This document shows positions 1,735 to 10,220 of a DNA stretch of 64,000 nt, in pieces (the stretch's first letter is position 1; each line of letters opens with the position of its first letter). The DNA lies in NCBI RefSeq assembly GCF_000382165.1, contig NZ_KB907714.1:1-64000 (forward strand), in the 5' to 3' direction. Source of the DNA: Arsukibacterium perlucidum DSM 18276 (GTDB taxonomy: Bacteria; Pseudomonadota; Gammaproteobacteria; Enterobacterales; Alteromonadaceae). The translations under genes were made by a program, and so were the position numbers. The notes under the pieces were generated by a model. It was given only the letters and a program-made list of their open reading frames with translations, was not told where the DNA came from and did not search any database.

Positions 1735-2493
1735 TTAACTATTTGCGACCATCACTACCGCGCCGGCATTAAAATCGGGGTTAATGGCATGGCCGGCGTA
1801 TCCTCGCGGATTGCACACAACCCGACAACCATGAACATAATAATCTGCATTGGAATGAATATGTCCGTGCACCCAAAGTGCAATATTATGGCGCCGCATA
1901 GTGGCTTCGAGGTCTGAAACGTAGGCGCCAATAATCGGATTAGATTGCTCACCATCAGGTACAGATTTTATGGAGGGAGCATGGTGACTTACCACAACGT
2001 TGGTAGCGACCGTTGACTGCGCCAAAGAGTTTTCAAGCCAATTCAGTGACTGTTTATGAATTGCCGCTATGTCTTGCGGACGAATTTTAGAATAATTGGG
2101 CGCGCGTTTAATTTTCTTGAAATCGTTCATCCGTTGCTGGCATTCAAAGCCTGTTAGCCGGGCGTCTCCAAAAATCTCAAAGTCGGTCCATAACGTCGCG
2201 CCATGGAATCGCACACCATCAATGTCTACGAACTGGTTTTCTAAAAAGTATACTGACGAGCCGGCTAATACCTCACGTATTTTCCCCTGTAAAACAGGGT
2301 AGGTCTGTTTGTAATATTCATGATTACCCAATACGTAAATTACGGGAATATCGAAATTTTGCGCGAGCAGCCATTCAGCGCCTTTGGTACCGGTGTGCAG
2401 ATCACCGGCAACAACCAGCACATCTGCATCTATCCTAGGCACCTCAAAATCACCGAACTCAAGATGGATATCACTCAAAAACTGCAGCTTCAT
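1735..2493 (-). CDS. calcineurin-like metallophosphoesterase
   Basis: This 252-residue protein has all five metallophosphatase motifs in order: SDIHLEF (D-x-H), GDLHTG (GD), GNHEYY (GNH[DE]), VSHHAPS, and HGHIHSN (GH-x-H). It should be an intact two-metal phosphoesterase acting in the cytoplasm; the substrate cannot be told from sequence. The ATG at 2493 is preferred over the longer frame to 2529 because the protein then opens with the canonical MKLQFLSDIHLEF and a GTGAG ribosome binding site precedes it. It is divergent from the XRE regulator gene, and the shared upstream region holds two copies of a CTAAG-N5-CTTAG repeat. Confidence 0.85.
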   Translation of the reverse strand: MKLQFLSDIHLEFGDFEVPRIDADVLVVAGDLHTGTKGAEWLLAQNFDIPVIYVLGNHEYYKQTYPVLQGKIREVLAGSSVYFLENQFVDIDGVRFHGATLWTDFEIFGDARLTGFECQQRMNDFKKIKRAPNYSKIRPQDIAAIHKQSLNWLENSLAQSTVATNVVVSHHAPSIKSVPDGEQSNPIIGAYVSDLEATMRRHNIALWVHGHIHSNADYYVHGCRVVCNPRGYAGHAINPDFNAGAVVMVANS

Positions 2494-2553
2494 TTTGCTC
2501 ACTATATAAAGTTGGCGTAACCGTTTCATACTACCGGTATTTACCCAGTGAAT

Positions 2554-2568
2554 CTAAGGATTACTTAA
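2554..2568. promoter_or_regulatory. putative operator copy 1 (CTAAG-N5-CTTAA)
   Basis: This inverted repeat matches 9 of 10 half-site bases. It lies between the divergent phosphoesterase and XRE genes, 33 bp centre to centre (about three helical turns) from copy 2. The likely binder is the adjacent XRE protein, by inference. Confidence 0.4.
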
Positions 2569-2586
2569 TAAAGCGTGGCGCGCTTT

Positions 2587-2601
2587 CTAAGAGAATCTTA
2601 G
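2587..2601. promoter_or_regulatory. putative operator copy 2 (CTAAG-N5-CTTAG)
   Basis: A perfect 5-5-5 inverted repeat 25 bp upstream of the XRE start codon. The same perfect repeat recurs at 3541-3555 between the exonuclease and protease genes and was not noticed elsewhere in the window. Position and symmetry fit an autoregulatory site for the helix-turn-helix protein. Confidence 0.45.
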
Positions 2602-2623
2602 GCACCGATTTAGCTTTGGTGCC
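2601..2623 (+). repeat. hairpin immediately before the XRE start codon
   Basis: GGCACC (2601-2606) pairs with GGTGCC (2618-2623), ending three bases before the ATG at 2627. No Shine-Dalgarno sequence is visible in this interval. The hairpin could limit translation, or the DNA repeat could be a further protein site. Confidence 0.35.
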
Positions 2624-2626
2624 AAC

Positions 2627-2893
2627 ATGTCTGACAAATCCGTTCTGCCGTTACCTAAACGCCTGAAAGCTGCAAGATTGGCTGCAAAGCTTACGCAGGA
2701 AAGTTTAGGCATCGCTGCTGGCCTGGATGAGCATGTAGCCAGTGCCCGAATGAGTCAGTATGAAAATGGGGTTCATACACCGGACTACAATTTTGTGCAC
2801 AAACTGGCAAAAATATTAAAGATACCCACAGCGTATTTCTACTGCGAAGAGGATGATCTGGCCGAGATTATTGCAGCACACGGCAGCAACTAA
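2627..2893 (+). CDS. XRE-family helix-turn-helix regulator
   Basis: A complete small regulator of 88 residues. A Cro/C1-type HTH spans about residues 10-70 (LPKRLKAARLAAKLTQESLG, then ARMSQYENGVHTPD as turn and recognition helix), followed by LAKILKIPTAYFY and an acidic tail (CEEDDLAEIIAAHGSN). Single-domain proteins of this size usually act as dimers that repress their own and neighbouring genes. It is flanked by a divergent phosphoesterase and a convergent exonuclease, and CTAAG-N5-CTTAG repeats lie in its upstream region. No Shine-Dalgarno is seen before the ATG, so the start is less certain, although the HTH begins soon after it. Confidence 0.8.
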   Translation: MSDKSVLPLPKRLKAARLAAKLTQESLGIAAGLDEHVASARMSQYENGVHTPDYNFVHKLAKILKIPTAYFYCEEDDLAEIIAAHGSN

Positions 2894-2918
2894 ACTAATT
2901 AACTAGCGGCGGATAACA

Positions 2919-3488
2919 TCAACTCATTCGATTATTTAGTGTGTAATTGAAAAGCCGTGCCAAATTTGCTGCGTCCGATACGGCAGAATGTTGCCGGCCT
3001 TCCAAGGTAATACCACAAATTTGCAATGCTGTTTTCAGACCAACCCGTTTAATTTTTCGTTGTTTGCAAAACTCCTTTTTGAAGTTCTGATACTCAAAGC
3101 CACTAAGAGGATACGCGATGTCAGCCGCTGTGCACTCTGTTGCCAGAATATCCCTGTCACCTTGGCCCCAGGAAATAATCAGCTCAGGTTTACTATCACT
3201 AATAAATTGCCCAAAGGTTGCGGCAACATGCTGGATGGTCGGTGCGTCAGCCAGCTGCTTCTTCGTGATGCCCGTTAGCTCACTGCAAAATTGAGTCAGT
3301 TCATAGTCTGACATAGGCTGCACATAGCTTTGAAATTCGTCGATGATTTTTCCCCCACCACAAAGAACGGCGCCAACTTCAATGATTTGATGTGGGTATT
3401 CCGGCACGTCGCGCTCGCAGGTTAACTCCAGGTCAAAGGCTATAAATCTCAAATGCGTTTCCAATAATAGAGGAACGTTAATCATCAT
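2919..3488 (-). CDS. DEDDh-type 3'-5' exonuclease
   Basis: This 189-residue protein has the DnaQ/RNase T-like exonuclease fold by motif. FDLELT supplies the Exo I D-x-E, WGQGDRDIL supplies the Exo II aspartate, and QHSAVSDAAN supplies the Exo III histidine and aspartate. The segment between Exo I and II (HQIIEVGAVL and SELTGITKKQL) resembles the ERI-1/KapD exonuclease group, which act on RNA or DNA 3' ends. It has no polymerase or other domain. Start is at one of two adjacent ATGs (3488 or 3485). It is convergent with the XRE gene and divergent from the metalloprotease, with a CTAAG-N5-CTTAG repeat in between. Cellular substrate unknown. Confidence 0.8.
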   Translation of the reverse strand: MMINVPLLLETHLRFIAFDLELTCERDVPEYPHQIIEVGAVLCGGGKIIDEFQSYVQPMSDYELTQFCSELTGITKKQLADAPTIQHVAATFGQFISDSKPELIISWGQGDRDILATECTAADIAYPLSGFEYQNFKKEFCKQRKIKRVGLKTALQICGITLEGRQHSAVSDAANLARLFNYTLNNRMS

Positions 3489-3540
3489 GAGCCATCATTA
3501 AGAATTAGCTCTTTTTCGGGAAATTTTACTTGCTTATATT

Positions 3541-3555
3541 CTAAGTATTCCTTAG
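3541..3555. promoter_or_regulatory. putative operator copy 3 (CTAAG-N5-CTTAG)
   Basis: A perfect copy of the repeat found twice upstream of the XRE gene. Here it lies in the divergent interval between the exonuclease (starting at 3488) and the metalloprotease (starting at 3702), placed to control both. Confidence 0.45.
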
Positions 3556-3701
3556 ATTTGTGCAATGGCAAGTCGGTTGAAAAACTGTACACGCAAAGCT
3601 ATGGGCCTAACGGTAGTAAACCTATGGTTGCCAGGCTGCACCCCGCAAGTAATTCGTGCATCCGCTTTGCTTCATTTTTTAAATTTAGCGGAATGTTGAA
3701 T

Positions 3702-5579
3702 ATGCACAATTTTAAATTAACTGCCTTAGCAGCGGCTACTCTGGCGATAACCTCAGCCACTGTTTTTGCACAAACCCATCAACATTCGGCCAGTTGCGGA
3801 CACGATGAACTTAACAGTCCTGTGCTCCAGCAAATCGGCCAAAGTCGGTTTAATGGTGCATTTGCAAAAAAAGCGGCGCCTTTTGCTGATGGCGCTGTGC
3901 GAACCATGAACTTTTCGGCTTCATCAGATAGCTTTATTGATGTGATTGTTTACGTACATCCGTCATACATTGATGATTTATCAACGCCAATTCGATTTGA
4001 TGAAAATAATAAGCCTATCGAAAACGGTGCGCAGTTTATGCACGACCGCGTACAAGATCAGTTCGATAAACTGAATGCTGCTATGGAAATAAACAATGTA
4101 AATGCTCGCTATCGCGTTGCATACGTGCATATTTTAGACGTTCAGCTTCCCGAGCTTGGCAATACTGATGCCCTTTATGATGAATTCGGTGAAATTGCAC
4201 AATGCACTACCGGTGACTGGTTAGATTTTGCGCCAGAGTTCTGTAATACGCCGGTCTATCAAGCTGCTTTTGATTTGTATAGCCGAAGTGGTGTTGATAC
4301 GTTTCACTATTTACGCTCTGCGCGTGCTAATGGATCGGGCATCGTAGGTTTGAGTGGTTTCTTCTCTGGTTCAGCTACCTACGACGATTACGCTGCAAAT
4401 GTCTCTGGCATGGTTGCAAATGGTGATGGTCAAGAGATCATTGAGAAGTATTTGAAGCAGTACGGTAGCGTTACAATTCACGAAGTTGGTCATGTTTTAG
4501 GTGCAAACCACCCTGATGAAGATTTTGATGGAAAAGGTCATCAGGCGCATTTTTGTGGTGAGCTATCGCCGGGTTCAAGTTTAAAGAAACGGACTGTGAT
4601 GGCATCTGGTGAAACGCACTTATTCTTCTCTGATCCAGAAGTTGTAGTTCAAGGTGACGCTTGCGGCATTGCTGGTGTAGCTGATAACTCAGATGCCGTT
4701 CGTAGCAACGCACCACTTTTGGCCGCAGTTGCTGATAAGCCTGTGGTAAGCACTAACTTTGAATTCACTCAGAGCAGCATGGTAGTTGATTCAGGCTCAG
4801 GCAAGCATACTTTCCAGTTGCAACGGCTTGGTGATTTGTCTCAGCCGGTATCAGTCAATTTAATGGCTGTTGACAATACAGCTTGGGAACTACGTGATTT
4901 CCACTTTGGCTGGCAGGAAGTTTTGTTCGCCGCTGATCAGGCTTATGCTGATGTTGAGTTTACAGCGCTTGAACGTGAGGGTAAGCACCCTAATACCCAG
5001 TTTGCTGTAAAAATGATGTATGCCACTGCTGGAAACCTTTCAACTGAACAGATACAGGTCAACATTCAATCTACTAATCCGCCCATGATTGGTAGTGTCT
5101 CACTCGCGCAAAGCACTAACTCTGTGATGGAAAATGCCGGCACAGTGACTTTAACCATTAATCGCACTAACGGTGTTGATGGTGAAGCTGTGGTATCCGT
5201 TAAAACCCGCAACCAAACGGCGATTGCCGGTACTGACTACACCGCTGTGGATACCCAGTTGACTCTTGCCGATGGTCAGGAGTCAGCCACGGTAATGGTT
5301 AATATTATCAATAACAGCACCTATCAGGGCTCACGGACCTTTGCATTAGATATTGTCCCCACAACCGAGGGGTTAACCGCTGGTACTACAACGGCCACTA
5401 TTACCATTACTGACGATGAAGTGCCACCAAGCACGGGAGGCGGTTCTGGTGGTGCAGGCGGTGGTTCAGATACTGGTGAAAGCAGTGGTGGTTCATTCAG
5501 CTTTATTACCGCTCTGTTTGGCGTAATGCTGCTAATGCGGCGCAAGTTTACTAATCAATTCCACAACGAAAGGAAGTAA
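3702..5579 (+). CDS. secreted metzincin-type zinc metalloprotease with Calx-beta domain and GlyGly-CTERM-like tail
   Basis: A 625-residue exported protease. The ATG at 3702 follows AGCGGA by nine bases and opens a signal peptide (MHNFKLTALAAATLAITSA, cleavage near VFAQ). The open frame upstream to 3558 reads as non-protein. The zinc site HEVGHVLGANHPD begins near residue 260 (HExxHxxGxxH) with a probable Met-turn RTVMASG downstream, so it is a metzincin. A Calx-beta-like domain follows (SVMENAGTVTLTINRTNGVD through ATITITDDE). The end is a Gly/Ser linker, a hydrophobic stretch (SFITALFGVMLLM) and RRKF, the layout of rhombosortase-processed GlyGly-CTERM proteins. The next gene's ribosome site overlaps this gene's end. 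Substrate unknown. Confidence 0.8.
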   Translation: MHNFKLTALAAATLAITSATVFAQTHQHSASCGHDELNSPVLQQIGQSRFNGAFAKKAAPFADGAVRTMNFSASSDSFIDVIVYVHPSYIDDLSTPIRFDENNKPIENGAQFMHDRVQDQFDKLNAAMEINNVNARYRVAYVHILDVQLPELGNTDALYDEFGEIAQCTTGDWLDFAPEFCNTPVYQAAFDLYSRSGVDTFHYLRSARANGSGIVGLSGFFSGSATYDDYAANVSGMVANGDGQEIIEKYLKQYGSVTIHEVGHVLGANHPDEDFDGKGHQAHFCGELSPGSSLKKRTVMASGETHLFFSDPEVVVQGDACGIAGVADNSDAVRSNAPLLAAVADKPVVSTNFEFTQSSMVVDSGSGKHTFQLQRLGDLSQPVSVNLMAVDNTAWELRDFHFGWQEVLFAADQAYADVEFTALEREGKHPNTQFAVKMMYATAGNLSTEQIQVNIQSTNPPMIGSVSLAQSTNSVMENAGTVTLTINRTNGVDGEAVVSVKTRNQTAIAGTDYTAVDTQLTLADGQESATVMVNIINNSTYQGSRTFALDIVPTTEGLTAGTTTATITITDDEVPPSTGGGSGGAGGGSDTGESSGGSFSFITALFGVMLLMRRKFTNQFHNERK

Positions 5580-5582
5580 AAA

Positions 5583-6263
5583 ATGGAAGGTACCGTTCTT
5601 CACTATGATGACACAACAAAAACAGGCATTATCAAAAATGATAGTGGCGACAGATATGATTTCGGCAGTGCTGACTGGAAATCGGGTGGTAATCCCCGTA
5701 TTGGCGATAAGGTAGATTTTGTAGCAAGCGATAAAGTTGCTTCTGACATATTTATCATAAAAAGTACTGTTCAACTTAACATGGGGAACGTGACCGACAA
5801 ACTTGCCGGTTTTCAAAGCTCAGATGTCGGGCAGAAAATTAGCGCGCTGTTTACTCATGGCGTGCACAATAAACTCGGCTTTTTCGCATCACTGGCAGTT
5901 TTAATATCACTGTTTTTTTCTGTGGTTGAGGTTCCTCTTTACGGCTCAGTCAGCCTTATTGCTGGTGCAACTGGCAAATTGACGTTCCTTCTGCTTATCG
6001 TATTGGCAATCCTCTTTTATGGTGGAGCAACAAAGCTCTACACCCGTGTTTTAGCCGGCGTTGCCCTTACACTGCTATTTTTACAGTACTACAATATGGT
6101 TTCTGATCTTATGGAGCTATTTCGCTATGGCCGGGTCGGTAGAAATACCCCGAATATATTTGCGCTATTTCAGTTTGGTGCACTGATTAACATCATCGCC
6201 AGTGTGGTTCTGTTTGTAGCCGCATTTTTCAGACCATACCGTAATAACGAGCACTCACTCTGA
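5583..6263 (+). CDS. membrane protein with N-terminal cold-shock-like domain
   Basis: This 226-residue protein has two parts. Residues 1-65 (MEGTVLHYDDTTKTGIIKND, then GDRYDF, IGDKVDFVAS) resemble the OB-fold of cold-shock proteins, although the aromatic RNA-binding motifs are poorly kept. From about residue 90 there are four hydrophobic segments (LGFFASLAVLISLFF, FLLLIVLAILFYGG, VLAGVALTLLFL, LINIIASVVLFVAAFF), giving an inner-membrane protein with a cytoplasmic N-terminal domain. It follows the protease by 3 bases, with an AAGGAAG ribosome site inside the protease 3' end, so the pair is likely co-transcribed and coupled. Function is not known. Confidence 0.65.
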   Translation: MEGTVLHYDDTTKTGIIKNDSGDRYDFGSADWKSGGNPRIGDKVDFVASDKVASDIFIIKSTVQLNMGNVTDKLAGFQSSDVGQKISALFTHGVHNKLGFFASLAVLISLFFSVVEVPLYGSVSLIAGATGKLTFLLLIVLAILFYGGATKLYTRVLAGVALTLLFLQYYNMVSDLMELFRYGRVGRNTPNIFALFQFGALINIIASVVLFVAAFFRPYRNNEHSL

Positions 6264-6314
6264 TTTAGAGGCTGCTATCTATTAATGACGGTGTCATTGA
6301 GGTTTTGGCAGAAT

Positions 6315-6500
6315 TTATTTCTGCCAATCTTTACCTGCTTGCAGCTGAACCCATTGCTCAATATCGCGTAGATACCACCTAACGGTTTTCGGCCCCAATC
6401 TAATTGGTTTCGGAGCATCGGGCTGCTCTTGGATTTTATACCAATGTGATTTGCTAACCAGCAATATTTTCAACACGTCGACTAATTTTAATAACTGCAT
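6315..6500 (-). CDS. AlpA-family excisionase/regulator
   Basis: A 61-residue protein of the AlpA type found in P4-like islands and cryptic prophages. The winged-helix DNA-binding pattern is VLKILLVSKSHWYKI with PIRLGPKTVRWYLRDIEQW after it. AlpA proteins activate the island integrase gene or act as excisionases. It lies on the same strand as the integrase at 6707-7948 but downstream of it, with 206 bases between them in which nothing else is seen. The association with the integrase is by context. Confidence 0.75.
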   Translation of the reverse strand: MQLLKLVDVLKILLVSKSHWYKIQEQPDAPKPIRLGPKTVRWYLRDIEQWVQLQAGKDWQK

Positions 6501-6706
6501 TTTGATACCCCCATATTATGTTGAAATCATTTTCGGTGATGGTGAATTCAGTCGCAATGATGAAATTAGCCAATTCAATTTGTTGGTATTTTGGTAAAAT
6601 CTTCTAATACAGAAAACCCTTTAAAAACAATTATTTAATTTTAGTATTCCTTTCGGCTTAAGAGGTTGGCCGGCGGCAGAGTCATTAAATTTGCGGTTAA
6701 TACTTG

Positions 6707-7948
6707 TCAGTTAGCCCGGCTCAGTAACGCAGAGGCATGGACAGTGCTTAGATTGCCATTGGCAGCGGTTTCAATATGATCGCTCCACCAATCCATCATG
6801 GTTCTACGATGGGCCAGATATTCTGCGTTGTTATAAATACGCCGGATATAATCGTCATCGCCATGGGCGAGTGACGTTTCAATCCAATCCCGATTAAATG
6901 AATTTTCGTTGAGCACCGTACTGGCAAGCGCACGCAATCCATGTGCTACGAGTTTGTTTTTATAGCCAATTTTTCGTAATGCATTATTAACTGTCTGTCG
7001 GTTCAGGTGTAGGTTTTTCCGATAAAACGATGGGAAAATATAATCACCGCTGCTAAATTCTCGCATTACACTGAGTATGGCTAAGCACTGTTTAGATAGC
7101 GGTACCTGATGTGGCCGGTCCATTTTCATTAATTCGGCCGGAATATTCCAAATTGAATTGGCAAAATCGATGTCCTGCCAACGTGCCGTAACTGCTTCGC
7201 CAGGGCGTACCATAGTATGTAATTGAAATTCAAATACGCAGCGGGTTGCCAGCGCAAGATCGCTCGAATAAAGCCGTTGCATTAGTAACGGCAACTCTTG
7301 TGGTTTGATCGTTTTCATCCTCGTGCTGGTAGGGCTGATAAAAGCCTCTTTTATGCCACCTAACCGATTGTGTTCCAGTTGACCTGTATTCTGAGTCCAC
7401 ACCATCAGCTCATTAATACGCTGACAAAGCCTGGAAAGGGTCTCCAGTTTACCTGCTTTCTCCAACGGTCTTAACACCTCTATGATTTGCATTGGTGTGA
7501 TTTCCGTAATAGGCAGATGGCCTATGGTAGGCAGCAAATGATTTTCGAAGGACCGGCGAAAGTTGGACGCATATTTCTGACTGAGTTTGCTAGATTTTAC
7601 CTGGAACCACTGTTCAAACATTGAATTAAGGGTGCTGTTAGCAGCTTTTACTGCGCTGAACTTCAGTTGTTCTAGCCAGCGCTGTGGGTCCGTGCCTGCT
7701 GCCAGCAACTGCCGGTATTGTTGCCGGCGCTCCCGGGCCTCAGCCAATCCCATCGATGGATAACTACCCAATTTGATATTATTGTGAGTCTTCAGATAGG
7801 GCCTCATATAGCGAAAGATCCAGTTCTTGCTGCCACTGGGAAGAACTCGTAGTTGCAGACCACTACCATCATATAGAGTGATGTCTTTCAAAGCAGGTTT
7901 GCAAGCCCGTATGGTTAAGTCGCTTAAAGGAGGGATTTTTTTCGGCAC
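6707..7948 (-). CDS. tyrosine recombinase/integrase, P4 type (copy 1)
   Basis: A 413-residue integrase. The N-terminal DUF4102-like arm-binding domain includes DGSGLQLRVLPSGSKNWIFR and KLGSYPSMGLAEAR. A SAM-like core-binding domain lies around residues 95-190. The catalytic domain has TMVRPGEAVTARW (first Arg), a PHQVPLS strand, HGLRALAST (H-x-x-R), LAHGDD (His) and the nucleophile Tyr in RRIYNNAEY. All catalytic residues are present, so it should be active. It is clearly paralogous to the integrase at 8688-9929, suggesting two elements stacked at one tRNA site. The upstream interval to 8310 holds the folded element at 8115-8200. Confidence 0.9.
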   Translation of the reverse strand: MPKKIPPLSDLTIRACKPALKDITLYDGSGLQLRVLPSGSKNWIFRYMRPYLKTHNNIKLGSYPSMGLAEARERRQQYRQLLAAGTDPQRWLEQLKFSAVKAANSTLNSMFEQWFQVKSSKLSQKYASNFRRSFENHLLPTIGHLPITEITPMQIIEVLRPLEKAGKLETLSRLCQRINELMVWTQNTGQLEHNRLGGIKEAFISPTSTRMKTIKPQELPLLMQRLYSSDLALATRCVFEFQLHTMVRPGEAVTARWQDIDFANSIWNIPAELMKMDRPHQVPLSKQCLAILSVMREFSSGDYIFPSFYRKNLHLNRQTVNNALRKIGYKNKLVAHGLRALASTVLNENSFNRDWIETSLAHGDDDYIRRIYNNAEYLAHRRTMMDWWSDHIETAANGNLSTVHASALLSRAN

Positions 7949-8114
7949 TACATTTCACCAATTTTTTGCAAAAATTAAATTCAATTGAAAGTTATTTTGC
8001 GGTGAGTGAAGTGACACCTGCAACTGTGAAATCAATTGAATTTATAAGCCGGCGGCAAGGGCTGACGAGAATAGTAGGCAAAAGAATGGTGGCTATTTTT
8101 TCGTGTTAAAAATC

Positions 8115-8200
8115 ATTGCTATTTTTCGCGGCCGCCTTTGTGGCGCTGCGCACCCCAAAGGCGGCAGAGCCGGAACGCGAGGCATTCCGGCAAAAGCAAT
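8115..8200. repeat. three-way-junction-like folded element between integrases
   Basis: An outer stem (ATTGCT with TTTT just after it, 8115-8126, against AAAAGCAAT, 8192-8200) encloses two hairpins: GCCGCCTTTG (8131-8140) with CAAAGGCGGC (8156-8165), and GCCGGAA (8169-8175) with TTCCGGC (8185-8191). No open frame explains it. It could be a structured RNA, a recombination or replication site of the island, or a REP-like repeat. Confidence 0.45.
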
Positions 8201-8252
8201 AACGATGCAAAAAATGAAGTGTATATTAAGTTTGCATAACCGCTAGATTTTC

Positions 8253-8278
8253 ATTTTCGACGAAAATAGTGCTATTAT
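8253..8278 (+). promoter_or_regulatory. possible promoter with palindromic operator for the 8311 gene
   Basis: A 15-base inverted repeat ATTTTCG-A-CGAAAAT (8253-8267) is followed by a -10-like TATTAT (8273-8278), 33 bases before the ATG at 8311. The -35 element is weak (TTCATT). The symmetry suggests a repressor or integrase-associated protein site. Confidence 0.3.
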
Positions 8279-8310
8279 CGTGATATATGGGTGCAATGTG
8301 GTGAATTTTA

Positions 8311-8691
8311 ATGGGTGATTCGAATTTCGAGCTAAACCATAATTCCATAATGGTTACTCCGGATAGTTGGCAAGTTGTATTAATTACCCCGCCTGCTGAG
8401 CTTGGTGCTCCAGTGTATAAAATATTCTCAGGTTGGGATTTACCTGAGGAATGGCGCCTGTCATCAGGTACCCATGATTTGGATAATTTAAAGAGCTTTA
8501 GCAGCTACTTTTTATGGCGACAATCATCAGGTACGGTTTACCAGCTAAGCAAAAATAAACAGCCTGAATTTACTGAATATGTTCAATCAGTTTTTAACGC
8601 AAAGGTTCTGGCACCGGCCAAAGAGTTTGAATTCGATATCCAGTGCCTATCAGCTGCAGATTTAGACAACGCCTTAACCAAAGCCTGCTAA
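8311..8691 (+). CDS. hypothetical protein between the integrases
   Basis: A 126-residue soluble protein with no recognised family. It is rich in aromatic residues in the middle (YKIFSGWDLPEEWRLSSGTH, then SFSSYFLWRQSSG) and has no signal peptide, membrane segment or obvious catalytic motif. A weak GTGGTG lies before the ATG. Its TAA overlaps the stop codon of the convergent integrase copy 2 (shared bases 8688-8691), so the two genes meet tail to tail with no terminator between them. The position in a mobile element and a promoter-like palindrome upstream make it a candidate cargo or accessory gene. Confidence 0.6.
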   Translation: MGDSNFELNHNSIMVTPDSWQVVLITPPAELGAPVYKIFSGWDLPEEWRLSSGTHDLDNLKSFSSYFLWRQSSGTVYQLSKNKQPEFTEYVQSVFNAKVLAPAKEFEFDIQCLSAADLDNALTKAC

Positions 8692-9929
8692 GCAGCAGGC
8701 TTGTATAGCGGGATGTTGGCCAGGCTGACATTGCCCTGAGCTGCTGACTGAATATGGTCGCTCCACCATTGCATCATATCTCTGCGGCCTTTTAAGTAAC
8801 TGGCTTTGTTGTATGCCCGTCTAACCTGATTTTTATCTTCGTGGGCGAGGGCGCTTTCTACCAGGTCTCCATAAAAGCCGGCTTCATTTAAAATTGTACT
8901 GGCCAGTGAACGCATGCCATGGGCAACTAAACGATTGGCAAAGCCCATACGTTTTAACGCCATATTGGCTGTTTCTCTATTAATATGACTGCCTTTGTGT
9001 CTGACAGACGGGAAGACATAAACTTGTTCGCCACTAATAGGCTGCATGATTTGGAGTAAGGCGATGGTTTGGAGTGACAGCGGGACCTGATGTGGCCGTC
9101 TTTTTTTCATAAACTCTGCCGGAACAGTCCAAATGGCCTCTTCAAAGTCAATGTCTTGCCAACGCACTTTAACGGCCTCACCCGGCCTGACCATCGTATG
9201 CAATTGCCACTCGATCAGGCAGCGGGTAGACAATTGAATACTTGCTCTGCTTAAGCGCTGCATTAATTCTGGCAGCTCCTCTGGCGTCAGAGTTTTCATG
9301 TTCTCGTTTTTGGGGGAGCTAAAGGCCGCTTTTATGCCGCTTAAACGGTTAAACTCCAGTAAGCCCGTGTTGACGGCCCAGGTCATTAACTCGTTAATGC
9401 GTTGGCAAAGCCGGGAAAGCGTCTCTAACTTTTCTGATTTTTCCAGTGGGCGCAGGATCTCAATAATCAATTGGGCGTTGATGTCTTTAAGTAGTAAGTG
9501 ACCTGCTTTAGGGAAAACGTGTTGCTCGAAAGAACGCTGAACATTAAATGCGTGTCGTTGACTGATACTTTTAAACTTCACCTCAAACCATTTTTCACAG
9601 GCATTTTGAAAAGTATTTAGGGCATCTGCCGACGCCTGGCTATTTTGCTGCTCCAGCCAGCGTTGTGGATCAATATTCTCTGCTAAAAGTTGCCGGTATT
9701 TAGCTGCCATTTTTCGGGCAGCAGAAAGTCCTATTGCAGGATAGTTGCCGAGCTTCAGATTATTGCGTTTCTTCACTAGAGGCCTGACGTAACTAAGGTA
9801 CCAAGATTTGCTGCCAGAAGGGCTGATCCTGATTTGTAAGCCGTCCCCATCGTAAAGAAGATAGAGTTTAGCAGAAGGCTTTGAGCTACGAATTATTGTG
9901 TCGCTTAAGGGTATGATTTTCTTTGGCAT
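8688..9929 (-). CDS. tyrosine recombinase/integrase, P4 type (copy 2, tRNA-proximal)
   Basis: A 413-residue integrase with the same architecture as copy 1: DUF4102-like N-terminus (YDGDGLQIRISPSGSKSWYL, KLGNYPAIGLSAAR), core-binding domain, then catalytic motifs TMVRPGEAVKVRW, HGMRSLAST, LAHEDKN and the Tyr in RRAYNKASY. The ATG at 9929 is chosen because AAGGAG lies five bases before it; the GTG at 9935 overlaps that site. The gene begins about 195 bases from the 3' end of tRNA-Arg(CCT) and reads away from it, the usual position of an integrase next to its attachment site. Paired 16-base repeats lie directly upstream. Confidence 0.9.
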   Translation of the reverse strand: MPKKIIPLSDTIIRSSKPSAKLYLLYDGDGLQIRISPSGSKSWYLSYVRPLVKKRNNLKLGNYPAIGLSAARKMAAKYRQLLAENIDPQRWLEQQNSQASADALNTFQNACEKWFEVKFKSISQRHAFNVQRSFEQHVFPKAGHLLLKDINAQLIIEILRPLEKSEKLETLSRLCQRINELMTWAVNTGLLEFNRLSGIKAAFSSPKNENMKTLTPEELPELMQRLSRASIQLSTRCLIEWQLHTMVRPGEAVKVRWQDIDFEEAIWTVPAEFMKKRRPHQVPLSLQTIALLQIMQPISGEQVYVFPSVRHKGSHINRETANMALKRMGFANRLVAHGMRSLASTILNEAGFYGDLVESALAHEDKNQVRRAYNKASYLKGRRDMMQWWSDHIQSAAQGNVSLANIPLYKPAA

Positions 9930-9946
9930 TTCCACTCCTTAGCACC

Positions 9947-10007
9947 CTTTTTGACACCACAGCTTTTGCAGTTTTAGGTCTGTGGTGTCATCTGTGGTGT
10001 CAAAAAG
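9947..10007. repeat. inverted and direct repeats upstream of the integrase (possible arm sites)
   Basis: CTTTTTGACACCACAG (9947-9962) and its exact reverse complement (9992-10007) form a 16-base inverted repeat. The core CTGTGGTGTCA also occurs directly at 9980-9990, so there are three copies in 61 bp between the tRNA end and the integrase start. These fit integrase arm-type or autoregulatory sites. Confidence 0.55.
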
Positions 10008-10123
10008 AGAAATTCTCTTTGGACCGGATTGGACCCATTAAGACCAAAACTAAGGCTAAAGCTTGATATTTAAAGGTTTTTTCAGGAGGTTCAGACCATA
10101 TAAGACCGGGTTGTACTGTCTTA

Positions 10124-10198
10124 TGGCTGCCCCAGCAGGAATCGAACCTGCAACTGCCCCTTAGGAGGGGGCCGTTATATCCATTTAACTATAGGGCA
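10124..10198 (-). tRNA. tRNA-Arg (anticodon CCT)
   Basis: On the minus strand a full cloverleaf can be drawn. The acceptor stem TGCCCTA pairs with TGGGGCA. The D arm (GTTAAATGGATATAAC) is followed by the anticodon stem GCCCC/GGGGC around loop CTCCTAA (anticodon CCT), the T arm GCAGG-TTCGATT-CCTGC, discriminator G and an encoded CCA. The body resembles E. coli argW, known as a prophage and island integration site. The 3' end faces integrase copy 2, so this is the probable attachment site of the island to the left. No second copy of the tRNA 3' end was seen in the window, so the far att site was not found here. Confidence 0.93.
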
Positions 10199-10200
10199 AA

Positions 10201-10220
10201 CGCGCGGGTAATAACGCGCG
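10201..10220 (-). terminator. short GC hairpin between flgT and the tRNA gene
   Basis: CGCGCG (10201-10206) pairs with CGCGCG (10215-10220). Only TTT follows on the minus strand. It could end flgT transcription or shape the tRNA leader; as a terminator it is weak. Confidence 0.25.

Follow-up and report, generated by a model that had tools for sequence, protein, structure and literature searches.

Near the left end of contig NZ_KB907714.1 of Arsukibacterium perlucidum DSM 18276, three copies of the inverted repeat CTAAG-N5-CTTAG lie around a small XRE regulator gene, two of them between this gene and a divergent phosphoesterase gene and the third between an exonuclease-like gene and a divergent secreted metalloprotease gene. 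Which protein reads these repeats, and which of the neighbouring genes do they serve? The window, that is, the 64,000 nucleotides at positions 1 to 64,000 of this contig, was said in a first-pass annotation to hold a gene set that fits no described system; its regulator and motif belong to the known class of C.Csp231I, or motif-8, controller proteins. The regulator and its operators are a pair of a known kind, and what is new is the pairing with a secreted protease and with an adjoining, predicted cyclic di-GMP (c-di-GMP) riboswitch.

A controller protein of the C.Csp231I type

The XRE protein is homologous to C.Csp231I (PDB 3lfp; E 2.6e-24, residues 10–83 against 3–76), with 43 of the 74 aligned residues identical as counted by hand, and it also matches the PADLOC family Control_protein (E 1.2e-27). 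C.Csp231I is described as a restriction-modification controller whose operator comprises two CTAAG-N5-CTTAG sites with an 18-bp spacer and whose base-contacting residues in the crystal are Ser32, Gln37, and His43 (PMC4321490), and Arg34 is reported to be invariant (PMC3115060). In the 3lfp alignment, Ser32, Gln37, His43, and Arg34 correspond to S39, Q44, H50, and R41 of the window protein, and the starts of its distal (OL) and proximal (OR) operators are 33 bp apart, which leaves the same 18-bp spacer. Three marks of the C.Csp231I type (motif 8) are present at this locus, namely helix-turn-helix (HTH) homology, the contact residues, and tandem long-spacer operators upstream of the regulator's own gene. 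Since operator, spacer, contact residues, and homology match those of C.Csp231I, the motif is not new and the link between the XRE protein and the repeat is far stronger than proximity. Judged from its sequence, the XRE protein belongs to the C.Csp231I-type controllers (motif 8, group A) and has no restriction-modification system next to it; the motif number is said to come from Sorokin 2009. No restriction-modification genes, and thus no cognate methyltransferase and endonuclease of a controller proper, were found at the locus among the eight open reading frames (ORFs) scanned by family between 482 and 8691, the rest of the window lying outside the scan. Elsewhere in the same genome, PF01555 has a single match, on contig C15, that stays below the cut-off (24.9 against 26.7), and PF00145 a single one above its own, on contig C32, other methylase families being outside the scan. 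A phage or viral origin was rejected, as no phage record matched the XRE protein and viral contigs gave no protease relatives and one weak XRE relative.

The repeat copies were recovered where the first-pass annotation had placed them, two perfect and one matching at 9/10 (Table 1), and its estimate of less than one perfect chance match per window held, dinucleotide shuffles averaging 0.04 perfect matches, with at least two in none of 100. With one mismatch allowed, the window holds 4 matches against 1.68 expected, a count that 7 shuffles reached, the fourth match (7081–7095) lying within an integrase gene. The whole genome (4.0 Mb) contains three perfect places, the two window sites and one within a 719-aa ORF on another contig, and a backward-read control pattern has one, about the count found beyond the two window sites; places with up to one mismatch, perfect ones included, number 62 per strand against 31 for the reversed control. 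A chance origin of the repeat was rejected on the window shuffles and the genome count. As far as perfect sites go, a wider chromosomal regulon was likewise rejected, the sole further one being inside coding sequence. A second inverted repeat, GGCACC/GGTGCC, occupies 2601–2623 between OR and the XRE start codon and is largely kept in the four close loci described below.

Among XRE homologues, tandem operators were searched for as two inverted repeats sharing a 5-base arm, 30–38 bp apart and with at most one mismatch per site, the arm sequence itself not being supplied. Of 62 distinct homologue genes, 45 are preceded by such a pair, and the distance between its sites is 33 or 34 bp in every case; letter shuffles gave a pair in 7 of 1860. 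Many of the 62 are close relatives, so that the count is not one of independent events. These 62 genes are the remainder after repeated rows and rows with less than 100 bp upstream were dropped and the weak XRE relatives (L010–L012 and L122) excluded, and they represent part of the matches, with loci for some matches only and for 4 of 275 plasmid records. The operator arm follows XRE residue 44 (window numbering), Gln going with CTAAG/CTTAG (20 genes and the 9/10 case of genome G315), His with CTTAG/CTAAG (16 genes, 1 exception), Arg with CTACG/CGTAG (5), and Asn with a CTAAG-like arm (2). The Gln and His specificity classes were published by McGeehan 2011, and the Arg class does not appear in the cited passages of that paper (PMC3115060). 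Arg at the Gln37 position occurs together with CTACG-N5-CGTAG in five of five pair-bearing genes (L049, L052, L060, L080, and L047), a sixth Arg-type gene having no pair; judging by residue and arm, the Arg-type genes are a third specificity class of C.Csp231I-type regulators. Several homologues adjoin mobile-element genes, either Tn7-like tns genes or integrases. In the genus, 18 XRE matches occur in 15 of 31 genomes, and the window's companion genes are absent near the 4 matches read (L123–L126) of the 14 outside the close group.

The conserved unit and the protease leader

Among 147 related genomes, close relatives of the metalloprotease (at least 64%) occupy four places in three genomes, namely the window, two copies in Rheinheimera pacifica DSM 17616 (copies 1 and 2; L004 and L005), and G315. 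In all four close loci, the XRE gene adjoins the metalloprotease gene and the third site precedes the latter, perfect in three and at 9/10 in G315. When the four leaders were letter-shuffled, a site of at least 9/10 came up in 30–43 of 5000 shuffles each. The same last-base mismatch of OL is kept in G315 and in both R. pacifica copies, and the window and copy 1 share 82% DNA identity over 2538–10206. The other 12 metalloprotease matches (25–41% identity, several to the Calx-beta region only) have neither a site of at least 9/10 nor an XRE gene in loci of 2.4–4.4 kb.

The two remaining genes are less constant. The phosphoesterase stands beside the XRE gene and its operators in two of the four close loci (the window and G315) and is absent from the readable parts of both R. 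pacifica loci; in copy 1, part of the upstream stretch is N-masked, and no phosphoesterase match occurs elsewhere in L102. The exonuclease-like gene is unbroken in two of the four, being absent in R. pacifica copy 2 and split into two frames in G315. As a core member the phosphoesterase is moreover weakened by the break of synteny with copy 1 at 2538, just upstream of OL. Because the exonuclease and the phosphoesterase vary across the four close loci, the conserved unit is, on sequence comparison, the XRE gene, the three operators, and the metalloprotease. Thus, of the small regulon under one HTH protein that the first-pass annotation had proposed, the operators in both divergent regions proved to be conserved in homologous loci, whereas the full gene set did not, and stable membership of the phosphoesterase and the exonuclease is not supported.

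The first-pass annotation had not spotted that the metalloprotease leader matches the c-di-GMP-I riboswitch aptamer. The match begins one base after the end of the third operator, and the first paired base of the aptamer is 12 bp past the operator. The aptamer is also present in two of the three other close loci (R. pacifica copy 1 and G315); copy 2 gives no match and lacks much of the aptamer and the stretch with the possible anti-Shine-Dalgarno arm, the operator being kept. The genus carries c-di-GMP-I aptamers in 31 of 31 genomes, at 62 places, 3 of them within this unit, and none of the 30 examined among the 59 others has an operator of at least 9/10 within 300 bp upstream; among the places examined, joint control by operator and riboswitch would therefore be confined to the protease. 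The aptamer presumably works as a riboswitch on the protease. The −10 box of a candidate promoter just upstream of the operator is aligned across the close loci and reads TATAAT in R. pacifica copy 2.

Table 1. Features of the locus, with positions in the window.
Feature	Position	Strand	Basis or remark
Calcineurin-like phosphoesterase, divergent from XRE	1735–2493	−	ORF open to 2529
OL, distal operator, CTAAGGATTACTTAA (9/10)	2554–2568	.	Pattern search
OR, proximal operator, CTAAGAGAATCTTAG	2587–2601	.	Pattern search; starts 40 bp before XRE ATG
XRE regulator, C.Csp231I type, 88 aa	2627–2893	+	Homology to PDB 3lfp
DEDDh 3'-5' exonuclease-like gene, between XRE and metalloprotease	2919–3488	−	Family scan
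Candidate metalloprotease promoter: TTTTTC (3512–3517), 17 bp, TATATT (3535–3540)	3512–3540	+	Predicted by eye
Third operator, CTAAGTATTCCTTAG, before metalloprotease	3541–3555	.	Perfect match
c-di-GMP-I riboswitch aptamer (RF01051), metalloprotease leader	3557–3643	+	Rfam, 54.1 bits against gathering score 35
Possible anti-Shine-Dalgarno hairpin, TCCGCT (3661–3666)/AGCGGA (3687–3692)	3661–3692	+	Candidate expression platform, predicted
Secreted metzincin-like metalloprotease, Calx-beta domain, GlyGly-CTERM-like tail	3702–5579	+	Profile matches
226-aa gene without family match, downstream of metalloprotease	5583–6263	+	Family scan
Two tyrosine integrases (6707–7948 and 8688–9935), tRNA-Arg end of island	6707–9935	−	First by Pfam, second by homology to first
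tRNA-Arg (CCT)	10124–10198	−	tRNA match

Proposed control of the protease and alternative readings

The computed sites, their conservation, the homologies, and the aptamer match make it likely that a C.Csp231I-type regulator without a restriction-modification system controls its own gene and represses the protease, with the sites as operators and a riboswitch in the protease leader, a scheme in which binding, the direction of control, the promoter positions, and riboswitch function are predicted. C.Csp231I is reported to activate and repress its own promoter via OL and OR, activation being tied to OL (PMC4824078), and Xre regulators of I-F3 elements have been tied to zygotic induction (PMC11406308). 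A dimer of the XRE protein would bind CTAAG-N5-CTTAG and should control its own gene as C.Csp231I was measured to do, activating it from OL and repressing it from OR. The third site stands alone, and there the protein would most likely repress the divergent promoter region, with the secreted metalloprotease as the main conserved target. The operator there would overlie the point where the protease transcript starts, just after the TATATT box. As c-di-GMP would act further down the leader, the protease would be under two locks, the island-encoded repressor and the c-di-GMP level of the host. Repression of the protease at the third operator is probable, its direction being the weakest step.

Several observations weigh against this scheme. 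OL matches at only 9/10 in the window, and all three sites do so in G315. The four close loci share descent, so that conservation of the third site does not amount to four independent events, and 17 of the 62 homologue genes have no tandem pair at 30–38 bp, three of these (L045, L046, and L077) having a single perfect CTAAG-N5-CTTAG and L050 having two perfect copies 49 bp apart. The window XRE protein, at 88 aa, is 10 residues shorter than C.Csp231I (98 aa, with two extra helices), the alignment stopping at residue 83, and dimer–dimer contacts may differ. In addition, a promoter scan gave 4 promoter-like sites against a mean of 9.6 in shuffles, the candidate at 3512–3540 not being among the hits, and the whole-leader fold is no better than those of shuffles (z −0.96).

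The third operator could instead activate the protease promoter, and the protease would then be switched on with a delay once the island has entered, in the manner of a restriction enzyme. The OL-linked activation that C.Csp231I exerts on its own promoter (PMC4824078) is in favour of this possibility, but the site directly follows a TATATT/TATAAT-like −10 box and ends 12 bp ahead of where the aptamer's pairing begins, a placement typical for repression, and it is a single site with no spaced pair, so that activation seems rather unlikely. A role of the XRE protein in regulating itself alone via OL and OR, the third site being a remnant without effect on the protease, such as an operator copy left by recombination, is an unlikely reading. 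It would agree with the autoregulatory pair standing alone near the gene in most of the homologue loci read and with the imperfect third site of G315; however, a site of at least 9/10 is found in four of four leaders and rarely in their shuffles, and R. pacifica copy 2 keeps intact arms despite a changed spacer, the absence of the exonuclease, and the loss of much of the aptamer. Also unlikely is that the third operator acts on the divergent exonuclease-like gene and leaves the protease to c-di-GMP alone. Both genes have the intergenic region in common, and a weak promoter match on the minus strand overlaps the operator (the scan total not exceeding shuffles), yet the site is kept in R. pacifica copy 2, which lacks the exonuclease-like gene, and in G315, where that gene is in two frames.

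Repression of the protease by the XRE protein admits a broader and improbable extension, according to which the timing switch of restriction-modification has been rebuilt as a two-input gate on a mobile island, linking establishment to the biofilm or motile state of the host. On entry of the island into a regulator-free cell, a burst of the surface or secreted protease would follow if the c-di-GMP state permits, and the protease would be shut off as the regulator builds up. Xre regulators of I-F3 elements have been tied to zygotic induction (PMC11406308).

Known systems and neighbouring genes

C.Csp231I and its C-box (motif 8, group A; PDB 3lfp and 4jcx) share with the window the 74-residue HTH region, the three contact residues, the operator, the 18-bp spacer, and the operator pair upstream of the regulator's own gene, but in the window the eight ORFs scanned around the XRE gene include no restriction-modification genes, the C-terminus of the XRE protein is shorter, and a further operator stands ahead of a secreted protease. 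RtbC is an Xre regulator of type I-F3b CRISPR-associated transposons (CASTs; name matched to I-F3b by order in PMC11406308), and the Xre regulators of Shewanella I-F3 CASTs are reported to cluster with C.Csp231I (PMC12452197); moreover, the same tandem operator accompanies an XRE homologue in L079, a CAST-like plasmid locus. Unlike RtbC, the window regulator would target a protease rather than a guide RNA or transposition, and none of the eight window ORFs scanned by family matched the Tns and Cas proteins of an RtbC-type CAST. BswR of Pseudomonas aeruginosa (PDB 4o8b), the second-best solved relative of the XRE protein (E 4.3e-19), is likewise a C.Csp231I-like regulator outside restriction-modification, but its footprint is ACCCGGCGTTCGCCGGGT and it controls the small RNA rsmZ (PMC3985676). 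Other c-di-GMP-I riboswitches (RF01051) before secreted proteins also place the aptamer in the leader of an exported enzyme, whereas the window aptamer is directly preceded by a C-type operator, which was seen at none of the 30 other aptamers examined. Among the papers listed, none was found that joins C.Csp231I-type regulators to a secreted protease, as judged by title and the start of the abstract except for the papers cited. These comparisons suggest a general role of C.Csp231I-type switches as modules of mobile islands, serving restriction-modification, CASTs, and here a protease with a riboswitch, in what would be a compact natural circuit that brings an island repressor and a second messenger of the host together over a span of about 100 bp.

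The metalloprotease has a Calx-beta region (Pfam, E 9.6e-26), a Reprolysin_5 match just below the cut-off (25.5 against 27 bits), and an NCBIfam match to the GlyGly-CTERM family well below it (51 against 150 bits); GlyGly-CTERM proteins are sorted by rhombosortase. Its HEVGHVLGANH motif, which we take to be a metzincin-like signature, is invariant in four of four aligned homologues, its signal peptide was read by eye, and an AlphaFold model from 4 alignment rows has a mean pLDDT of 34. The phosphoesterase matches the PADLOC candidate defence family PDC-S10 (E 3.4e-18, partial profile). The gene starts at 2493 and 3702 given in the first-pass annotation fit better than the mechanical ORF starts at 2529 and 3558.

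The 226-aa gene also follows the metalloprotease in R. pacifica copy 1 and G315. The integrases and tRNA-Arg close the island on the right, and the order is the same in R. pacifica, where tRNA-Arg (CCT) is beside an integrase. The tRNA-Arg is likely the attachment site of the island; of the stretch 9937–10200, which includes it, no more than 16 bp recurs elsewhere in the window, and the only counterpart in L102 stands at the tRNA. On the left, the island is truncated where the contig begins, at window base 1, and this contig start lies, as read by eye, inside a transposase-like reading frame (1–222), presumably IS256-like.

Further gene neighbourhoods were seen among the XRE homologues. In Pseudoalteromonas (L006–L009), the XRE gene and its tandem operator precede large genes, and the one scanned, of 1297 aa in L008, matches STAND/NACHT-type NTPases and is possibly a defence gene; a divergent gene of 364–557 aa in the same loci has no Pfam match over the cut-off (one scanned). 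A two-gene pair lies divergent from mostly His-type homologues in L061, L064–L067, L069–L071, L075, L076, and others, and encodes a protein of about 180 aa without a Pfam match and a DEAD/ResIII helicase of about 460 aa (one of each scanned), sometimes beside tns genes. Finally, a small gene of a single cluster is divergent from the XRE gene in nine loci (L045–L047, L049, L050, L054, L060, L073, and L077), with an HTH_35 winged helix in L073, the one scanned.

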